In this document: in pieces, positions 2,513 to 59,511 of the stretch
Layout: every line of letters begins with the position of its first letter
Numbering within the stretch: position 1 is the first letter of the stretch
IMG/VR virus record: IMGVR_UViG_3300010160_000050
Location: 1 to 59,511 of that record
Length of the DNA stretch: 59,511 nt
Reading direction: 5' to 3' (one strand)
Origin: a virus
The notes under the pieces: model-generated
The model's input: only the letters and a program-made list of their open reading frames with translations
The model's database searches: none
What the model was told of the DNA's origin: nothing
Made by a program: the position numbers and the translations under genes

Positions 2513-2537
2513 AAAAAGGGCCTCTCGGCCCTTTTTA
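2510..2537. terminator. Bidirectional Rho-independent terminator
   Basis: GGGCC (2518-2522), loop TCTC, GGCCC (2527-2531), flanked by an A-run on the left and a T-run on the right. It therefore works as an intrinsic terminator in both directions, between the convergent phoH gene and the minus-strand gene ending at 2535. It overlaps both stop codons. Confidence 0.88.
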
Positions 2538-3353
2538 CTTTAGTCCTAGTTCTTTACGTATTTTGGTAGCTGAAATATCGGTGACAGTGTCATCGAATGT
2601 TTCTTCACCGGCAGTATAGCCTACACCTCGACCCCAACCAATGTGAACAATATTAGGTACAACCTGTATCTCATATTGACCTTGATATAACGGGTCTAAA
2701 TCACGGCGAATAAAACTTTTAACCTTTGCCACTTCAAACGGATTACTACCTTGCCATCCTTGCACATCACGCACTTGAATAACAACTTGGCCAGTCTTAG
2801 CTAACAATCTTTCAAACAATGCACGATGGCCATCGTGCCAAGGTTGCCAACGTCCTAGCATCTGCACAGTTTCTTTCTTCCAATCAAATACAGGGCGTCT
2901 GCGATTGTCAACTATATGATCAGCAATAAAGTCTGCCCATTTTTCTGCATCTTGCTCTGTTATACGAAAATCATAATGTTCAGGTTCAACAAATGCCGCA
3001 TTGGTATCGGCATATCGACTTTCTCGAATAGTGTCTACCCAAATAGTCCAGTCTGCTTTAAAATTGTTACGCATTTCAACTAGCGGAGCAACAAAATCAC
3101 AAATAACATATTCTGTGCCTGCTTCTATACTAAATTGAAACATACGTAAACTTTGACGGATTCTTCCCTCTTTGCTGAAGTCCCAATCATTATACTTGCG
3201 GCGGACATCATCTGCATTAAACCAAGTTACCTTAGGAAATATTGGTTCCATTTCTGCATTAGTAATACGATCTTCTAATTTATTTTTTAATGCTTCTGCT
3301 AAGGTTGTTTTACCAGCACCTGGCAATCCCATAATTAAAATACGTTGCGTCAT
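2535..3353 (-). CDS. P-loop kinase (APS kinase-like) fused to a nucleotidylyltransferase
   Basis: This is a two-domain protein of 272 residues. The N-terminal half has Walker A GLPGAGKTT (residues 9-17) and a NADDVRRKY...GRIRQSLRM segment, like the substrate loop of adenylylsulfate kinases. The C-terminal half opens with GRWQPWHDGH, in which HDGH (173-176) is the HxGH motif of nucleotidylyltransferases. It closes with ISATKIR (260-266), the second phosphate-binding motif of that superfamily (NMN adenylyltransferase, phosphopantetheine adenylyltransferase and relatives). The order is kinase then transferase, opposite to NadR. The substrates cannot be read from the sequence; NAD salvage or another nucleotide-activated cofactor is possible. 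Its ATG lies one base from the ferredoxin stop, in the same operon. Confidence 0.8.
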   Translation of the reverse strand: MTQRILIMGLPGAGKTTLAEALKNKLEDRITNAEMEPIFPKVTWFNADDVRRKYNDWDFSKEGRIRQSLRMFQFSIEAGTEYVICDFVAPLVEMRNNFKADWTIWVDTIRESRYADTNAAFVEPEHYDFRITEQDAEKWADFIADHIVDNRRRPVFDWKKETVQMLGRWQPWHDGHRALFERLLAKTGQVVIQVRDVQGWQGSNPFEVAKVKSFIRRDLDPLYQGQYEIQVVPNIVHIGWGRGVGYTAGEETFDDTVTDISATKIRKELGLK

Positions 3354-3354
3354 G

Positions 3355-3678
3355 TTATTCCTCTAATAGTTTTATTTTATTTGGAACATCTTTCCAATTG
3401 TCTGCATCAGGAAGTGCAGATTTTTGTTTTGTAATTACTGGCCATTTTTTACTTAGTCTAGTATTAATTTCTAACCAAAATGGCACATCGACTGTAGCAT
3501 CACTATCAGCAACAATAGCATCTACAGGACATTCACTAACGCAAACGCCACAGTCAATACATTCGTCGGGATCGATTACTAGAAAATTTGGTCCTTCATA
3601 AAAACAGTCAACTGGACAAACACTTACACAATCAGTATGTTTACATTTAATACAATTTTCTGTTACTAGATATGTCAT
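3355..3678 (-). CDS. fdxA: 7-Fe ferredoxin ([3Fe-4S][4Fe-4S], FdxA type)
   Basis: This 107-residue protein matches the bacterial FdxA family (Azotobacter ferredoxin I) over its whole length. C9, C17 and C50 are placed to bind the [3Fe-4S] cluster. C21, C40, C43 and C46 are placed to bind the [4Fe-4S] cluster. The free cysteine C25 is also conserved. The C-terminal helix region (residues about 60-107, with LPDADNW) is present, so this is not a short 2x[4Fe-4S] ferredoxin. The role is low-potential electron transfer; the partner is unknown. The start overlaps the clamp loader stop (ATGA), implying coupled translation. Carriage by a phage is unusual; ferredoxins known from cyanophages are the plant-type [2Fe-2S]. 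Confidence 0.95.
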
Positions 3679-4595
3679 TGCAACCTCGCAAGCCTGATCA
3701 TTGTTGCCGCAAGATTAATCTCTTGATCTGCTACTGATGCATTATCTACAAGACCTTGCTTGATAATAAGAACTGCACTATCTTGTTTCTCTTCATCGGA
3801 ACCAAACAATTCGATATTATCGTACATCCAACGATAGATCTCTTCCATTTCTTCCGGACGGGCTTGACTGCATAACAGTTTACGTGCTTCGCTAATCTTG
3901 CCCTTCTTAAACAAGTCTACCATCTCTACACGATAGTCTCCTGCGCCGTCAACTACTTCTGGAACTTTTAATGTACCATTAGTACTGTTCATTTGTACAT
4001 TGTTAATACACTTACGCAAGTCTGGATATGTACCTTGTACAAAAGTATCTAATGTTTCAAGATCAAAGTCAATGCTTTCTTCTACTAAAATAGTAGCAAC
4101 ACGGGCAGTAAACTCTGTTAAGTCTGTTTTTTCAATCTTAATCTCTTGGCAACGACTCTTTACAGGAGTAATAATCCTATGTGGATAGTTACAGGTAAAA
4201 ATAAAGCGAACGCTATTCGAATAGTCTTCCATTAGGTTGCGTAGTGCTGGCTGTACAGATTCTTTATTCATGTAATCTGCTTCGTCAATAAGTACAACCT
4301 TAAAATCACCAAAGGGCATTGTTTGACAAAAACCAATCAGCTTGTCAACCCATTCAATCTTACGACCTTCTTTACTTCCGTTAGCAACTAAGATGTCTGT
4401 ATCTTGTACTCCAATTTCATTTAGTAGTAACTTTGCTAATGTTGTTTTACCAGTACCAGCATTACCGCTTAACAAGATATGCGGAATTGATCCGTCCTTT
4501 ATCCATTTAGCAATTTGCTCTTTTAGGGCGTCGTCTTTAAAAACATAACCTTCTACAGTTTTAGGACGATATTTTTCTACCCACAACTCTTTCAT
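3675..4595 (-). CDS. 44: Sliding-clamp loader ATPase (T4 gp44 / RFC small-subunit type)
   Basis: The protein has 306 residues, beginning with the clamp loader signature WVEKYRP. Walker A GNAGTGKT is at 44-51, Walker B LIDEAD at about 102-107, and the SRC arginine-finger motif at 147-149. It belongs to the AAA+ clamp loaders that open the ring clamp and place it on primer-template DNA. In T4 the loaded clamp also activates late promoters, which fits the late boxes in this window. It lies between a small membrane protein (4-bp ATGA overlap upstream) and the ferredoxin (ATGA overlap downstream). The small partner subunit (gp62) and the clamp (gp45) are not in the window. Confidence 0.93.
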
Positions 4596-4843
4596 ACTAT
4601 TTCCTCAACAATGCCTAAGATTTCTGCTAGAATAAACAATGCGCCTGCTAGTGTAAACGATCCCATAATAAGAGCTGATGCGGCACCAATACGTACAGCA
4701 CTCTTAACAACGCTAACATAAAAATGTTTTCTTGCATCCGGATGTTTAACTGTTGATGTTTCTGCGGGAGTATTATCAAGTACTCTGTCTAACCTATTTC
4801 TTAGGTCTTTCATTATTTCTATATTTTGTTCGTTGTCTGTCAT
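4592..4843 (-). CDS. Small membrane protein
   Basis: The product has 83 residues. The N-terminal half is polar and charged (LRNRLDRVLDN). Residues about 50-80 are hydrophobic (IGAASALIMG, then LAGALFILAEILG), enough for one long or two short membrane helices. The family is not recognised. It overlaps the clamp loader start by 4 bp (ATGA), so it is coupled to it. It may anchor or modulate something at the inner membrane; no activity can be assigned. Confidence 0.68.
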   Translation of the reverse strand: MTDNEQNIEIMKDLRNRLDRVLDNTPAETSTVKHPDARKHFYVSVVKSAVRIGAASALIMGSFTLAGALFILAEILGIVEEIV

Positions 4844-4995
4844 GGTGTTTTTCCTTTAAAGATGTTTTTGATAAACTGTAAGAGATTATAAAATCTCATA
4901 CTATACATATTAATTGCTGGAGGATGATGTGGACATCTTCCTTGATTCCAATCACAGGTAACGCTGTATTGCTGATTACAAGTATTACATTTCAT
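4840..4995 (-). CDS. Small Cys-rich conserved phage protein
   Basis: The product has 51 residues, starting MKCNTCNQQYSV, with further Cys/His in CDWNQGRCPHHPP. CxxC plus C and C-x-HH suggest a small zinc-binding knuckle. Similar proteins occur, from memory, in T4-like marine phages. The ATG at 4995 is chosen because AGGAGG lies 7 bp upstream. Starting further up would place the start inside the promoter (-10 at 5021-5026). It is the first gene of the operon that continues through the membrane protein, clamp loader, ferredoxin and fusion protein. Confidence 0.75.
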   Translation of the reverse strand: MKCNTCNQQYSVTCDWNQGRCPHHPPAINMYSMRFYNLLQFIKNIFKGKTP

Positions 4996-5020
4996 ATTTT
5001 TCCTCCTGGCATATACTGCT

Positions 5021-5049
5021 ATTATAGAGGTTAAAAAAGGGTCTGTCAA
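5021..5049 (-). promoter_or_regulatory. Consensus sigma70 promoter (TTGACA-N17-TATAAT)
   Basis: The -35 TTGACA is at 5044-5049 and the -10 TATAAT at 5021-5026, with a spacer of exactly 17 bp: a perfect match to the bacterial housekeeping consensus. The transcript should start near 5014, with AGGAGG and the ATG at 4995 just behind. The -35 hexamer is the entire 6-nt loop of the upstream terminator hairpin. Confidence 0.9.
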
Positions 5050-5057
5050 GACCCTTT
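5033..5057 (-). terminator. Rho-independent terminator overlapping the next promoter
   Basis: On the minus strand an 8-bp stem (AAAGGGTC paired with GACCCTTT) encloses a 6-nt loop and ends in a run of six T (5033-5038). It lies 9 bp past the stop of the 43-codon gene and ends the groES-mazG transcript. Its loop is the -35 box of the following operon. Confidence 0.85.
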
Positions 5058-5065
5058 GGTGTTAT

Positions 5066-5197
5066 CTATTTGATCAAATCTATTCCGTAAACATTGCCAC
5101 TCCGAACACTGTATACAGAAAACATCACTGCTTCGTGTAGTGTTTCAAAATATCTGGAATGTAATGTTTCATATGTGTAATATTTTACTCTATACAT
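5066..5197 (-). CDS. Small conserved-looking protein (43 aa)
   Basis: An ATG at 5197 opens a 43-codon frame, MYRVKYYTYETLHSRYF... ending VYGIDLIK. It is rich in Tyr and basic residues and fills the space between the MazG gene and the terminator at 5033-5057. The start lies 3 bp after the MazG stop. The Shine-Dalgarno is weak (AAAAG). The placement inside an operon, and a sequence that looks like a small alpha/beta fold rather than random translation, support it. Function unknown. Confidence 0.62.
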   Translation of the reverse strand: MYRVKYYTYETLHSRYFETLHEAVMFSVYSVRSGNVYGIDLIK

Positions 5198-5200
5198 CTT

Positions 5201-5566
5201 TTATACAAATGGTTTTAAATCTGGAGGAGTCCAACCTAGCGGCTTCAATACCTTACCATCTTCACGTTTCCGAACCTTTCCTGTTTCGGAGTCGATCTTA
5301 GCAAAGTTTGTTTTCATGACTTCTTTCCAAGCACCCTCAGCATCACTACCCATACTATGTATAGCACCAATTGTAACAACAAGAATATCAATTAATGCGT
5401 CCAGTGTTTCCAATTGATCATTGTTGTCCACTGCGACCCTAAGTTCTTTGTATTCTTCGTCAATAAGACCGAGGTACATTTTAAATTGTTCTTGGTCAAA
5501 TTCTCCACCTGTAGTTTGATCACAGGCTTTCATAAACTTTTCTTGATCTCGGAATGGATTTGTCAT
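5201..5566 (-). CDS. mazG: MazG-like nucleotide pyrophosphohydrolase
   Basis: The product has 121 residues. The all-alpha NTP pyrophosphohydrolase signature is present: LIDEEYKEL (E37, E38, E41) followed by LETLDALIDILVV, giving the EExxE...ExxD pattern of Mg2+ ligands. The family hydrolyses (d)NTPs to monophosphates. In marine phages MazG was proposed to lower ppGpp, but later work favours dNTP hydrolysis. The start overlaps the stop of the GroES-like gene (ATGA at 5563-5566), so the two are coupled. Confidence 0.85.
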   Translation of the reverse strand: MTNPFRDQEKFMKACDQTTGGEFDQEQFKMYLGLIDEEYKELRVAVDNNDQLETLDALIDILVVTIGAIHSMGSDAEGAWKEVMKTNFAKIDSETGKVRKREDGKVLKPLGWTPPDLKPFV

Positions 5567-5961
5567 CTTAAAAACTCATCTGGGCTAACTGTTGGGGGAG
5601 GGCCACCGCCATCTAAATGACCAATAATGGCATCTTTAGGTTGTTCAGTATCCCACATAATGATAGATTTGTTTTCTACCATACGAATAGTAGTTTCTGT
5701 ACCATCTTCATACTCGTATGGAATGCCCCTAGTCCAGCGACCGTGTTCTATTAAAATCCAATCACCGACATTAAATTCTTCATTATGATCTTTACCTACT
5801 GCCCAGACTTGCGCCCATCTAGCATGGATGCCGTGATCCTTGGCATCATCACTCATCAATACAATACCGCCGGTAGTCACTTGCTCGCCAAAGTTCATGT
5901 TATGAACAAATATTTTATTACCTAGCGGTATAATTTTACCTTTTACTGCGTTGACGTTCAC
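5563..5961 (-). CDS. GroES-like co-chaperonin (T4 gp31 type)
   Basis: The product has 132 residues. The core GKIIPLGNKIFVH...TTGGIVLMSDDAKD...ARWAQVWAVG...VGDWILIEHGRW follows the GroES beta-barrel order, with a mobile-loop segment around TTGGIVL. The C-terminal extension (GGGPPPTVSPDEFLR) is probably flexible. In T4, gp31 replaces host GroES on the GroEL ring to fold the major capsid protein, and the same role is likely here. It is followed by mazG with a 4-bp overlap. Confidence 0.85.
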   Translation of the reverse strand: MNVNAVKGKIIPLGNKIFVHNMNFGEQVTTGGIVLMSDDAKDHGIHARWAQVWAVGKDHNEEFNVGDWILIEHGRWTRGIPYEYEDGTETTIRMVENKSIIMWDTEQPKDAIIGHLDGGGPPPTVSPDEFLR

Positions 5962-6740: not shown

Positions 6741-6749
6741 TCAGCTATT

Positions 6750-6983
6750 TTAACTGACTTTTATTAAACTGTCAAGATCTGTGTCGCGTTTTTGGTACTG
6801 TTCTTGCCACATTCTGGATCTGCGGTTTGCCAATTCTTCTTTGTAGCCTTCAATTAACATTATCAGTTGTTGTTGTATACCAGAATTACTAGTTTGAAAA
6901 TAACGCTTACTAAGCTCTTGAAGTTTATTCTCAAGCTCGTTATCTTTTAACTTTGACAAGTCTGGTGCTAGCGGATGTAACAT
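6750..6983 (-). CDS. Conserved small phage protein, helical
   Basis: The product has 77 residues, beginning MLHPLAPDLSKLKDNELENK. The Leu/Glu/Lys-rich pattern with regular spacing predicts two long helices. Similar proteins with the MLHPLAPDLS start occur, from memory, in T4-like marine phages. Its ATG overlaps the last base of the upstream fibre gene's stop codon. Function unknown. Confidence 0.7.
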   Translation of the reverse strand: MLHPLAPDLSKLKDNELENKLQELSKRYFQTSNSGIQQQLIMLIEGYKEELANRRSRMWQEQYQKRDTDLDSLIKVS

Positions 6984-19600: not shown

Positions 19601-22600
19601 CCTGAACTTTGTGCTACAACATATGTGCCTGCACTTAAACCAGTTCCACTAATATTTTGACCAAGTTGTATTGTATTACCGCTTACATAATTAACGGTTA
19701 AGAATAGTCCTGATACAGAGCCAACAACAGTTGCTTTTGCAGCCGCAATGGTCAATGACTGATAAGTTGAAGTCAGTATTGGGCCGGCAATATTGTAACT
19801 GATATTACTATTACCATACACTGTATAGTGAACTCCCATCAACTGACTTGAAACTGGAGCAGGGTATAAATTGTTTACACTATATGTACCTGCTAGGCCT
19901 GCTGTAAAAAAATAAACAGTAGCAGAAATGTTGCTTGTCAGCGCATTACTCAATGTAATAGTAGTACCGCTAATATTAGTTACATATGTATTAGTTGGTA
20001 AGCCAGCAATTGTTGCCGCGTTACCAGAAACAAATTGTCCTTGTAATATATTAGCTGATCCTACACTAAGCGTTATTGTATATGCTCCGCTAATTCCTGT
20101 TGCAGTTGAACTATATATTGATGCCGCTGAACAAGTTAATTGTTCTGTTATTCTAGTTCCAGCAGTTACACTAGTACCAGTGATACCTGTAATAGTAGAT
20201 CCTACTAATATAGTACCGGATGTGATATTACTAACAGTTAACGTAGTAGCAGAAATGACACCAGTGAATCTTGCCGCATTTGGTGCAGTCTCTAATCCAG
20301 TAATTGAATATGTGATTAATTGAGCATCAGAGTCATATACGGCAGTAGAAATATTATATCCTTCTCCCGGTCTTGTTGGTGCGGCAATACCAGTACCACC
20401 GTACCCGCTAATGTCTTGATATGACCTAGTAGCATCAGCAGTAACTTCGTTAAGTTGTACAATACCATAACCTTCAGTGCTACTAATAGTTCTAACAAGA
20501 TAGTTAGAAATTCTATGAACACGACCGTTCCAAGCAAAACACATTTGCCCAGTTAGAATACGTTGTAGTTCTCCGGCACTATTAATTTTTCTAATAGATA
20601 AGTACTGGTCTCCAATTTGTGAACCTAATGTTCTAGTAGTACTTCCGCCGTCAATGCCCGCCTGCGCTTCTGTTAAGGTATTATGATCAGGATCAATAAC
20701 TAAACCAATATAACTATAACTAGAGTCAAATGTTAAAATAATATCATTTTGTGTTGGAGATACTGCTTGTATAATTGCATTTGATAATGCTACAGCCGGG
20801 GCTGGGGAAACCGTAAATGTAGTATCACTAGTAATTGAAACTACTGTAGTTGATTCAGATAAACTACCGGTTCCACTAACTATAGAGACTTTCATACCCG
20901 CACGTAGTGAAAGGGTTGATCCAACAGTGATTACGTTACTAGAGCTGTATGCCCTCTCAATAGTATTGTAAGTCAACGTCATTGGATTACTCAACGGATC
21001 TTTAGTGTTGAACGCTAGTACACGATATACTGGAGCATCAGCATTATCCAGTGGGTCACCTCTAAATGTTAATGCCGTACTTGGTCGAGTCGGGCTAATG
21101 TTATCAACATTGTAGAACTTAAAGTTTTGATTTGGTCTAATAACCACTAACTGATTATCAAACAACTCATTTTGTAAACCAGTAGAACTAGTATTGTTTG
21201 TGCCACTAGTGTTTAGATTTAATCTAAGGATAGTTCCACTCTTTAATTTAAGAGTAGTAGCTGTAGTAGTACTAAATGTTCCAGGATTGACACTGGTAAA
21301 TTCTAAAGTGACATAATTTACATCAGATGCTACGCATAACCAACCTGTTAAATTATTGTTGTAGGCAGTGTTTGCATTACCAGTAATGGTATAATATCTT
21401 CCAACATCTGGAATATAAGTTTTTGGAGGAAAAGTAAATTTAACTCTATATTTGCCATTCCCTCCATATAGTGCCGCAGCCTCAGCTGATGGCTGAGCAG
21501 TTGAGAAATATGTTCCTGAAGCATCAGTAATACCTGCAACTTCGTATCTAGTAATACCAATATCAGTGATAGCACCGTCAACTATGGTATATCCGTGATT
21601 GATTTCTATCTCACTTACGTTATATGGCAAATAGCTATAGGTATCGATGTAAACAGTTGTTTTTGTTTTCCCCATCTCTGCGGCAAAAGGCCCGGATTTA
21701 TAAATTCGAGCCACCTGAGGCATGTCATTGGCTAAGTTGGCCGCATCAGGAACTTCAAATGGGTCACTACCTTCTGCAACAAGAGCATACTCACCGTGTG
21801 CATTAGAACCTGCAACAGAACGAATTTGTCCACCATTGCGTGAATAGTAAGCAGTCCAACAGTAGTAGGTAAACACTGATACTGTTTCAATCAATCCGTT
21901 ATTTGTAGCAACTAGACCATAGGCTAAGTCGTTTAACTGTGTCCAGTCATTAGACAACATACTTGTATTACCTGCCGCTTGTAGAACTAGTTCGTCTGGC
22001 AATGGTCCAGACAAATATGTATTATATGGAGTATCTTGATTTAATTGTAAAACATATTTTGGATATACTACAGCATCTGGAATATTACTAATACTGTCAG
22101 CCCATAATTTTCCGTTTAAAATAATATCGTTTACTAACCCGACTAGCCCATTAATTGTGGCGCCAGCGGCACTACCACCAGTAGCATTAGTATCAAAAAC
22201 TTGAGCAACAAAATCGTTAGGGTTAACATTATTCAAAGTTTGATAATTTACCAACGGTGCTTGATTGTTAATAATACGTTGTGCTAGCGTGTCAATGTAA
22301 CTAATACCGGCTCGACACTCAACACTTTGTTCTGTTACAACTAATACAGAACTTGCAACTAAGTATCTCTTACCAGACTTAATAGTATTATATCTTCCAC
22401 CGTATAATATATCAGTAGAAATATTGCTAACTAAGAATCCAGTATCTCTTCTGCAGGTAGCTTCATCAAATGCAAACGAGCAATACATTGTTCCGGTATC
22501 ACTATCTACTGAAAATAGTGATCCAGGAGTTCCGCCACTAATTGTTTCTGATATTGTAAAATTAGTTCCGCTAACAACTTGTTTAACATAGTATTTGGCA

Positions 22601-31770: not shown

Positions 31771-34700
31771 TTAAATTCTTCCTACAACTACTTCGATAAC
31801 ACCCTCATCACCGTCAAAGTTTTCTAGAGCTTTACCAATAATTGCACCTAATCTTGGGTTATCAGTAGCACGGGCATATCCGCCACCAGCTGAAACTAGC
31901 ATATCGCCCTTGCGTATTTTGCCCTTAACCTTACATGGCACTCGACCAGTCAATGCTAGAGCAACTACCTTATCGCCCTCTAACCCAATGTTCATTAGGT
32001 AAGCTGGGTCTGTGGAAACAATACCAGCGACTCGAATAGTATCTTCATCGGCTACAGTTACTTCAAACTCTCCACCAAACATTAGTACAGTTCCAGGCTC
32101 ATAGACCGCATCAGCTTGATAATTCTCAGCTAAGTCAGCCGCATATACCGCAGTGGTATTGGAGCTAATAGTAATTGTATTACCACTTTGTGTAACACTA
32201 GTATCGCCACTGCCTGCTATAGTAACAACTCCTGACACCGCAGTATATCCGCTGGCTCCCACATAAGTTGCAGTACCTGCCGCAGGCGGATTAGGTTGTT
32301 TAGCCCAAGAGTAAACGTCACTAGCCGGTGCACTGCCTGCCGATGCCGCATAAACAACGTACATACCAGATGGTTCTCTATAAGCGGCACCGCCGCTGTA
32401 GGCACCGTTATCATAAACATAACGTGCATAGGTTGCATTAGTCGCGTTAGTTGCATTAGTTGCGTTAGTTGCATTAGCTACAGTACCACTTACACTACCT
32501 GCTGTTGCCGCATAACTAACACTTAACGCACTAGTTAAGTATGTTCGTAAATAACTATCACTACCATTTGTACCCCAGACTCTACTTGGGCTACTGTTGT
32601 TGCCTTCGTCACCGTTGCTAGAGTTGATGTAGCCTGTTTGTAAATAACCATTAGCATCAGTGCGAACAATTTGATTAGCACTATTATTTCGACCAGTAGC
32701 AACTGCTAAACCACCAGCCGTAGTTGCATTACTCACTGATTTATTAGCGTCGGCGGTATTGTCAACATTTCCTAACCCAACTTCTGATTTAGTATAGCTT
32801 GGCTTAGTAGAAGACTTGGCCCAAGGATATACGTCATTTGCTGAGGCACTACCTGCGCTAGTAGCATAGTTAACTGATTTGTTTGCATCAGCAGTATTAT
32901 CAACGTTACCTAAACCAACTTTACTCTTACTAATTGTTAACCAACTTGGGTCACTATAACTACCTGTAGTAACGACTCCGTTGGTTGCTGTAGTAGCATT
33001 ACCACTTAATGCTCCGACAAAAGTTGTTGATGTTACACTAGTCAATCCGGCTAGTGTTGTACTTGACGATCCTAAGCTAATTGGAGTAGTACCAATAGTA
33101 ATACTACTGTAAGTTAAACGTGCGTTTGGTAATGACCCACTTGTAATGTTACTTGCATTAGTTGTGTCAGTAGTTGCTGAAGCAGCCAAGCCAGCAATTT
33201 TACTTGTTGCAATCGCCGCACTTGCACTAATGTCAGCATTAACAATACTTGCTGATAAGTTTAGTTTGCTATAAGCAATCGCCGCACTAGTACTTACATC
33301 AGCATTGACAATACTATTACCTAAACTTAATTTGCTATAGGCAATTGCCGCTGTGCTACTTACATCTGCATTAACAATACTATTACCCAAACTTAGTTTG
33401 CTATAGGCAATAGCAGCCGCCGAGTTAATATCAGCATTAACAATAGTGTCATTGGCAATCATGGTGCTGGTAATAGAACCAGTGTCGCCTGTTGTTACAA
33501 TAGTTCCGCTAACATCATTAATAGTTAATGTACGAGTAACTCCGCTAGTAATTCCGCTTAGTTGAAACTGTAATTTTTTAAGATTATCAGCTTCGTCTTG
33601 GAAGTAAGTACTAGCATCAGTAAATGTTTTGTTAGTAAATGTCTGAGTTTGACCAATAAACGCAAACGTATCATTACCTGTTAATAGTGGCAAGGTTATA
33701 GTTCTATTAGCCGTTAACTCGCTGACTGCAAAATTATATGTATGGTCTGAACTTGTGTCATTAATCTTAGGTAATGTCAAGGTCTTGTTAGATAGTGTAT
33801 CAGTAGTAGCACGACCAACAATAGTATCTGTAGTTGTTGGCAGTGTCAATGTACCTGTATTAACAATAGTACCAATCACTGGACTTGTTAGTGTCTTGTT
33901 AGTAAATGTTTCTGTACCGTCTAAGGTAGCCAATGTACCTGTAGTTGGTACTGTAACGTTAGTTGCACCACTTACTGTTAATGTTATAGCATTGCCAACA
34001 GTTGTAAAGTTATTGGCTAGAGTTAAATTGCCGCCTAGCTTAATAGTTCTTGCCGCATTGACCATGTCAAGGGTTAATGTACGACCTGCTGTTAGCGCAG
34101 TTGAGCTGTTGGCCGCAAGTGTTACATCAAAAGCCGCACTGGCATCTCTTATTGCTAATGTGCCAATGTTAGTAATGCTGGTAGTTGTTCCACTAATTAT
34201 AGGATTAGTTAGGGTTTTATTAGTTAATGTTTGTGTGCTGTCAATATCAACCAAGTCACCAGTAGTAGTTCCGCCTGGTAGCTTGCCTAATACTCTTGCA
34301 CTTGTTAGTACAGTTATACCACCAATTCGATATTCTTTACCAGCGGCAAGGTTCATGTGCTCACTTGAGGTCCATGCGCTAGTTGAGTTGACCCAATTGA
34401 ATGTTTTGTCAGTTGTACCTTTTAGTGTAATGCCGCCACCGTCTGCTGTGGCATTAGTTGCGGTTAATACATCAAACGTGATAGTACCATCTGTGTTTGC
34501 AGTTGTTGGGGTTACAGTAATTGTTGTCGGGTTAACAATAGTATTGATAACAGTAATACCACCAAATGCCCCGGCACCAGTAGTTTTAACTAATCTCATT
34601 CCGCTAGTTAATCCGGACGTGTCTATTAATCCTGCTACTATGTTTCCACTAATAGTACCCGATAAATCTGATAGTGTAGATACACTGCCTAATTCAATAT

Positions 34701-58931: not shown

Positions 58932-58960
58932 ATTATAAACTCAAAAGAAAACCCTGTCAA
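58932..58960 (-). promoter_or_regulatory. Consensus sigma70 promoter predicted to give a leaderless mRNA
   Basis: The -35 TTGACA is at 58955-58960 and the -10 TATAAT at 58932-58937, with a 17-bp spacer. Six bases (AGTTGT) separate the -10 from the ATG at 58925. The -35 is part of the terminator stem at 58948-58981. Confidence 0.88.
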
Positions 58961-58981
58961 CCAAAACAGCTGACAGGGTTT
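58948..58981 (-). terminator. Rho-independent terminator overlapping the next promoter
   Basis: AAACCCTGTCA (58949-58959) and TGACAGGGTTT (58971-58981) form an 11-bp stem with an 11-nt loop, followed on the minus strand by TTTTCTTTT. It follows the DUF2828 gene, which ends at 59009. The left arm carries the -35 box of the next promoter. Confidence 0.88.
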
Positions 58982-59008: not shown

Positions 59009-59511
59009 TTAGAGAGCGTAACGATCACTCATTACAGTCTTAAGCATGATGCCTTCTGGAGTGAACTGATCCAAGTCAGCGGCTAGCAAGCTAGTCATTA
59101 TACTTGGGCTAAATCCACTTACCAATGCGGCACCACTCTTGTCAGCGGCAACAGGCACGTTGTCTGAACTGTTTAGGTTCCAGAAAACAATCTGTGGCAC
59201 AGTATAACCTGCATCTTCGAACTTGCGTTCGATCATTTGCATTGCGCTGTCGTCGTAACGGGCGCATTGGTTGAACTGCATGTCTGACAAGATCAGCAAC
59301 ATGGCTGGCATGTCGCTAGCTGGTACTGAACCCTTAACTGCAACGCTTAGGATCTTGTCCATAGCGGCATGCAAGTTAGTGCTCATGTTCCAATCACTCT
59401 TGCTCATTTGAGCAACCTTGTCAACAATGTTACCCTTTAGAGTAACAAGTTGTGGCTTGTCTGAGAAAGTCAAGAATGTGTCCTTGAACACGCCCTTGTT
59501 CTTGTCTGCTA
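59009..59511 (-). CDS. DUF2828 / vWA-type protein (partial, C-terminal part)
   Basis: The frame is open to the right edge of the window, so the N-terminus is missing. The visible 166 or so residues read KGVFKDTFLTFSDKPQLVTL, then LLILSDMQFNQC, then VFWNLNS and ALVSGFSPSIM, the signature of the DUF2828 family, which carries a von Willebrand A-like domain related to Ro/TROVE proteins. Such proteins bind RNA or scaffold complexes in other contexts; the phage role is unknown. The terminator at 58948-58981 ends its transcript. Confidence 0.87.
   Translation of the reverse strand, partial: ADKNKGVFKDTFLTFSDKPQLVTLKGNIVDKVAQMSKSDWNMSTNLHAAMDKILSVAVKGSVPASDMPAMLLILSDMQFNQCARYDDSAMQMIERKFEDAGYTVPQIVFWNLNSSDNVPVAADKSGAALVSGFSPSIMTSLLAADLDQFTPEGIMLKTVMSDRYAL

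Follow-up and report, generated by a model that had tools for sequence, protein, structure and literature searches.

A putative interlocked terminator and promoter at an operon boundary of a phage genome

Can one short stretch of phage DNA close an operon and open the next one? The question is raised by positions 5057-5021 on the minus strand of a 59,511-bp phage contig (the window, which is the whole sequence record), where the original prediction had placed a terminator that carries the TTGACA −35 box of a consensus promoter, one element thus stopping one transcript and starting the next. Both the sequence and its coordinates proved right, on the minus strand. Our analysis makes it likely that the element is an interlocked terminator-promoter, a compact and insulating form of operon punctuation that would also mark a junction at which genes are swapped. 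The double role is supported by a covarying stem, a T-tract confined to the promoter spacer, a −10 box at 17 nt and a position between two co-directional sets of genes, all of which point to an element that would stop one transcript and start another.

Layout of the element and of the operons around it

Positions 5057-5021 read AAAGGGTC-TTGACA-GACCCTTTTTTAACCTC-TATAAT on the minus strand, which from 5057 onwards continues as AAAGGGTC TTGACA GACCCTTT TTTAACCTC TATAAT AGCAGTA...AGGAGGAAAAATATG (Table 1). Within the first 12 kb of the window, only TTGACA-17-TATAAT at 5049-5021 reaches 12/12 as a promoter; conserved and placed ahead of a gene, it has the make-up of a sigma-70 promoter. When folded as RNA, the hairpin at 5057-5036 reached −11.8 kcal/mol with a z of −3.4, and 1 of 200 shuffles was equally stable. 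A six-base loop of exactly TTGACA, as had been predicted, holds for the description of the stem with eight pairs; as RNA, a ninth pair forms between the T and the A of TTGACA, and the predicted loop is then UGAC. Approximately 70 copies of TTGACA are found in the window, and only the one at 5049-5044 is flanked by self-complementary arms of more than 4 bp with at least three G-C pairs. The terminator stem itself is present in one copy. Being rich in G+C, followed by a T-tract after the end of a gene and having a stem kept by covariation, the hairpin corresponds to an intrinsic terminator. Its T-tract at 5038-5033 is modest, with six T of which three pair with the A run of the stem, so termination may be partial. 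A search of the element against Rfam returned nothing significant (the best match, with an E of 0.21, was far below its cut-off). The hairpin promoters of N4-type virion RNA polymerase, which are short single-stranded DNA hairpins with no −35 or −10 box, were ruled out by the sigma-70 consensus and the fixed 17-nt spacing.

As far as the sequence can tell, the element is the boundary between two complete operons. The upstream one, on the minus strand, runs from a polymerase fragment (6740-6222) through a small ORF, the GroES/gp31-like gene and the MazG gene to a 43-aa ORF. The proposal that the element ends a groES-mazG transcript was right in that the operon is closed there, but the last gene before the hairpin is the 43-aa ORF and not mazG. 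The first downstream gene, a 51-aa ORF, gave no Pfam match; ORFs similar to it lie directly downstream of the element in two relatives (L004 and L006). At the far end of the downstream operon, a strong hairpin at 2536-2513 (AAAAAGGGCC...GGCCCTTTTT) is located between converging operons, with the kinase gene on the minus strand and phoH on the plus strand. The best matches of the gp44-like protein were in PA5oct-like jumbo phages, at 52%, and the presence of gp44- and GroES/gp31-like genes in a 59.5-kb record raises the question of a T4-like myovirus.

Table 1. Coordinates of the features of the element, of the genes on both sides and of a second site in the window
Feature	Position	Strand	Details and basis
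Probable promoter of upstream operon, TTGACA-17-TAAAAT, without hairpin	6747..6775	−	Sequence
GroES/gp31-like co-chaperonin	5563..5961	−	PHROG 931, E 1e-12; PHROG 3188, E 9e-5
MazG-like pyrophosphohydrolase	5201..5566	−	PHROG 671, E 4e-36
43-aa ORF, last upstream gene, ending 9 nt before the hairpin	5066..5197	−	Homolog in L126 and L078
Putative intrinsic terminator hairpin, AAAGGGTC-TTGACA-GACCCTTT	5036..5057	−	8 bp, or 9 bp with loop UGAC; RNA fold and covariation
−35 hexamer TTGACA, the loop of the hairpin	5044..5049	−	12/12 together with the −10; fixed in relatives, as is the 17-nt spacing
Six-T tract of the terminator, inside the promoter spacer	5033..5038	−	T enrichment at the same spacer positions in composites
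−10 hexamer TATAAT, after a 17-nt spacer	5021..5026	−	Spacing test on unrelated hairpins
Predicted transcription start, A	5014	−	Inferred from the −10
Ribosome-binding site AGGAGG	5002..5007	−	Sequence; start codon ATG at 4995
51-aa ORF, first downstream gene, with CxxC and CPHH motifs (possible zinc ribbon)	4840..4995	−	Translation
83-aa small hydrophobic protein, probably membrane	4592..4843	−	Sequence
DNA polymerase clamp loader, gp44-like	3675..4595	−	PHROG 168, E 4e-79
Ferredoxin-like ORF with two CxxCxxCxxxC-type cysteine motifs	3355..3678	−	Sequence
Kinase/nucleotidyltransferase-like protein, last gene of downstream operon	2535..3353	−	PHROG 10255 kinase, E 2e-44; NadR-like by inference
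Ordinary terminator closing downstream operon	2513..2536	−	Sequence
Second interlocked terminator in the window	58949..58981	−	15-bp hairpin, −20.9 kcal/mol; −35 (58960-58955) in the 3' arm
−10 TATAAT of the second site, past its T-tract	58932..58937	−	Sequence

Conservation of the element and turnover of its neighbors

We collected relatives of the locus through gp44 and mazG. The element is kept in them, mostly 12-13 nt past the mazG stop codon, with stems that vary between GGGTC/GACCC, GGGCC/GGCCC, GGGAC/GTCCC and GGGTT/AACCC and with additional A-T swaps outside of these. In the 24 relatives that share one stem register, 99% of the cells were paired, and two-sided changes were found in three stem pairs (7 cells vs 0.8 in shuffles); when the partner was slid by 1-3 columns as a control, pairing fell to 67% or less. 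Other relatives have the stem register shifted by one around a fixed TTGAC, and there the distance between −35 and −10 is still 17. Covarying stems around a fixed TTGAC and a fixed spacing indicate that selection maintains the hairpin for its pairing and the hexamer for its role as a −35 box. Exceptions were also found: L159 retains the stem with a −35 decayed to TGGATA, and four relatives (L148, L076, L154 and L011) have a promoter after mazG without the hairpin. Neither half, therefore, strictly needs the other, and evolution can separate the two parts.

The genes next to the element are less constant. Where relatives differ in their downstream ORFs, their identity was 0.85 over the −35 and the 3' arm and 0.29 just past the −10. 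Small ORFs have also changed places: the 43-aa ORF that precedes the element in the window has its homologs downstream of it in L126 and L078, and the small hydrophobic protein, encoded by the second gene after the element in the window, is encoded by the first one in L158. The drop in identity and the relocated ORFs make the junction look like a swap point, as for the PeSL cassettes discussed below. A gene for a cytidylyltransferase-like protein (PF01467) recurs directly after the element in three relatives (L106, L114 and L142).

Recurrence in phages and comparison with known systems

We scanned IMG/VR for GGGNCTTGACAGNCCC, that is, GGGNC-TTGACA-GNCCC hairpins, with no −10 box required; the frequencies from this and the other collection scans refer to samples among the matches listed and not to totals. 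The scan yielded at least 88 distinct complementary phage hairpins among the matches listed, 62 of which (62/88) had a −10 box of 5/6 or better exactly 17 nt away; each of the other spacings from 10 to 26 accounted for five at most. Grouping the same hairpins by the similarity of their flanks gave 33 clusters among the matches listed; 13 of them had the −10 at 17 nt, compared with 1.7% per spacing as background. The converse scan, for CTTGACAG-N16-TATAAT, found arms of at least 6 bp in 9 of the 126 phage promoters among the matches listed, when ~1 was expected from re-paired arms. Altogether, 142 distinct composites among the matches listed contained 46 distinct inner stems. The fraction of T at spacer positions 8-12 was 0.73-1.0 in 59 composites vs 0.27-0.37 in 391 plain promoters, and none of the 59 lay inside a long ORF of the same strand. 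A stop codon of the same strand lay within 30 nt upstream in 65% of the intergenic composites and in 54% of the plain promoters. Composites were present in named isolates, among them the Staphylococcus phages vB_SscM-1 and 515A1, the Acinetobacter phage Phab24 and the cyanophage S-CREM1. That of Phab24 sits between the primase/helicase and the DNA polymerase, and at a site of this phage that we read as terminator plus promoter, its depositors annotated only a terminator. Judging from these matches, the design with the −35 in the loop appears to have arisen many times in unrelated phages. A separate group of phages (ten contigs, L179 to L295) carries a GAGAGTC-TTGACA-GACTCTC composite, the stem of which reaches up to 14 bp and is nearly invariant across contigs.

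Several such sites can coexist in one genome. For whole records, we took all promoters of 11/12 or better and asked how many overlapped a terminator. This was so for 2 of 12 in the window, 3 of 32 in a 167-kb relative (G001), 4 of 35 in G016, 3 of 57 in vB_SscM-1, 3 of 13 in G029, 1 of 35 in G033, 5 of 16 in Phab24, 2 of 35 in S-CREM1 and 3 of 70 in 515A1, which carries several composites of the loop type. The composites of 515A1 are located near 32,872 (minus strand), 131,656, 133,203, 136,757 and 137,712. None were counted among 73 promoters in RB49, whose whole-genome scan turned up no site of the loop type that has a good promoter, or among 17 in KVP40, where the −10 of the interlocked sites is weaker and keeps them below the threshold. 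Markov-2 shuffles gave none by this count, and Markov-shuffled genomes overall gave none, or at most ~0.1 interlocked sites per genome. Some of the scanned genomes had been chosen for having one site, and six such sites were removed for the comparison with bacteria; after that, 20 of 389 phage promoters were interlocked vs 1 of 189 in bacterial loci (Fisher p 0.002), and with the pattern-selected promoters also removed the bacterial count was 0 of 71 (p 0.03). The second site of the window (58981-58932) is flanked by an ORF that ends at 59009 and by one of 75 aa (58925-58698), and its counterpart in G001 has a shorter stem with the −35 at the loop. Since the stems differ between sites of the same genome, repeated invention is indicated rather than one inherited cassette.

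In 669 whole bacterial genomes of two classes, the hairpin pattern occurred 8 times, about as often as its reversed control, and none of the 8 hairpins had a −10 at 17 nt; these bacteria are not known to be hosts of the phages. A bacterial origin was rejected: promoters with arms in genome_contigs showed no excess of hairpins (arms of 6 bp or more in 4 of 118, vs an expected 2.3), and the 669 genomes held none with a −10. The recurrence of the design in unrelated phages, together with its absence from the sampled bacteria, points to a phage-specific pressure, for which compactness, insulation or a relay of polymerase are candidates.

Composite elements of a related kind, the promoter-early stem-loops (PeSLs), are reportedly the subject of Arbiol et al. 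in 2010 and Comeau et al. in 2014, both cited in PMC4503421. In T4-like phages, these elements unite a promoter and a terminator in one cassette; mediating recombination, by mini-circles or by exchanges between copies, is a further PeSL trait. The element of the window resembles them in joining a strong sigma-70-like promoter to a stem-loop terminator within a small cassette, and in lying at a junction where genes are shuffled. It differs in that near-identical dispersed copies are a feature of PeSLs, whereas the stem of the window is not repeated and so offers no copies that could recombine with each other by homology. A strict PeSL, meaning a dispersed identical cassette, was rejected because the stem is single-copy both in the window and in G001, whose other composites use other stems. 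We class the element as a variant of composite terminator-promoter elements and not as a PeSL proper.

Three sequenced phages offer further comparisons. KVP40 (AY283928) has seven copies of aaagggTTGACnnnnGTCAgcccttt, at 21147, 59699, 85859, 97800, 100194, 121377 and 150227, each with a −10-like TATTAT (or a variant) just downstream, which places the −35 inside the hairpin. There, however, the −35 forms part of the paired 5' arm, the seven sites share one stem and the −10 is mostly TATTAT, whereas in the window the −35 is the loop and the spacing is exactly 17 nt. RB49 differs in having terminator and promoter in tandem, with ~30 nt from loop to −35. At ~3179 on the minus strand of RB49 (AY343333) we observed the reverse case, in which a 13-bp terminator-like hairpin has the −10 TATAAT as its loop and a perfect −35 lies upstream. 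For the Staphylococcus Kayvirus 515A1, RNA-seq mapped sigma-70 promoters with 17-nt spacers as well as intrinsic terminators, and p98 is placed "immediately after the t97 terminator" (PMC7698491). These neighboring pairs of terminator and promoter are like that of the window, and the main text of that report does not describe the overlap itself. We found no description of a −35 box in a terminator loop in the open-access literature that we searched.

Proposed working of the element and its alternatives

In the mechanism that we propose, upstream transcripts, with the polymerase fragment, groES, mazG and the 43-aa ORF, would form the GGGUC hairpin and be released at the T-tract, and the downstream operon would thereby be insulated from read-through. 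From the same DNA, the host sigma-70 RNA polymerase would begin a new transcript at ~5014. The two signals may fit into each other geometrically, as the loop of an intrinsic terminator is free in sequence and so is the 17-nt spacer of a sigma-70 promoter; the −35 can thus occupy the loop, and the 3' arm (8 nt) and the T-tract can fill the spacer, followed by the −10. The limit of 17 nt would then set the combined length of arm and T-tract. Because such a unit would end and begin operons within ~40 bp, gene cassettes could be exchanged without loss of insulation or promoter. Both termination and initiation would take place at the element during infection, and insulation together with compactness may be what is selected.

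Other explanations can be measured against the same evidence. Intergenic gaps of phages are short and receive both terminators and promoters, and an overlap of the two could arise in such a gap by chance; nevertheless, the exact 17-nt placement in those 62 of 88 listed hairpins, which were picked without regard to a promoter, the conservation of the architecture in relatives and its absence from Markov-shuffled genomes in the whole-record scan leave chance with next to no probability. It is also very unlikely, if slightly less so, that the inverted repeat is an operator for a protein over the −35 rather than a terminator. Such an operator would account for a palindrome centred on the −35, but it would keep its sequence, and here the stem changes while the pairing is kept. 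The stems are, moreover, wholly different between sites and phages among the matches listed, and the T-tract stands consistently on the spacer side.

Two further possibilities concern the fate of the polymerase. The original prediction held that pausing polymerase would occlude the promoter and that the upstream operon could thus repress the downstream one. Polymerases pausing and terminating at the U-tract would, in this view, cover the promoter from −35 to +1, and strong upstream transcription would repress the gp44 operon. This is geometrically possible, as the expected release point (~5035-5030) falls between the −35 and the −10 and a polymerase that terminates there would cover the promoter; a release point inside the promoter, though, allows equally for a hand-off, in which the polymerase would stay on the DNA after releasing its RNA, recruit sigma and reinitiate at the overlapping promoter, coupling the operons positively. 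In vitro, E. coli RNA polymerase usually remains bound to the DNA after intrinsic termination, and 37-55% of termination events are followed by reinitiation at a downstream promoter (PMC6978380); retention and restart are likewise described in PMC6978322. One polymerase can hence use a terminator and then a nearby promoter, albeit in these studies with separated elements, in vitro and in a non-phage setting. Given that polymerase is often still competent to restart nearby after termination (PMC6978380), occlusion cannot be assumed, and stimulation is predicted just as well. In addition, the genes flanking the element differ in relatives and in unrelated phages and no specific operon pair is conserved, which argues against a specific circuit from operon to operon. 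We thus regard the repressive switch, for which the analysis yielded no support beyond its geometry, as improbable. The hand-off seems to us somewhat less improbable, though still unlikely: it is favored by the published restarts (PMC6978380, PMC6978322) and by a distance between terminator and promoter that is effectively zero, but a retained polymerase diffuses over long distances, which makes an exact overlap unnecessary. That interlocking was selected for passing a terminating polymerase to the overlapping promoter (or for blocking it), as a transcriptional relay that evolved repeatedly in phages, is a similarly doubtful proposition.

If it were true, a relay between neighboring phage operons would be a mode of operon coupling that we have not found described. 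Annotation usually treats terminators and promoters as separate features, and either one alone would tell half the story of the interlocked terminator-promoter proposed here. A −35 box in the loop of a terminator may be a simple sequence signature by which to recognize operon boundaries and gene-swap junctions in phages.
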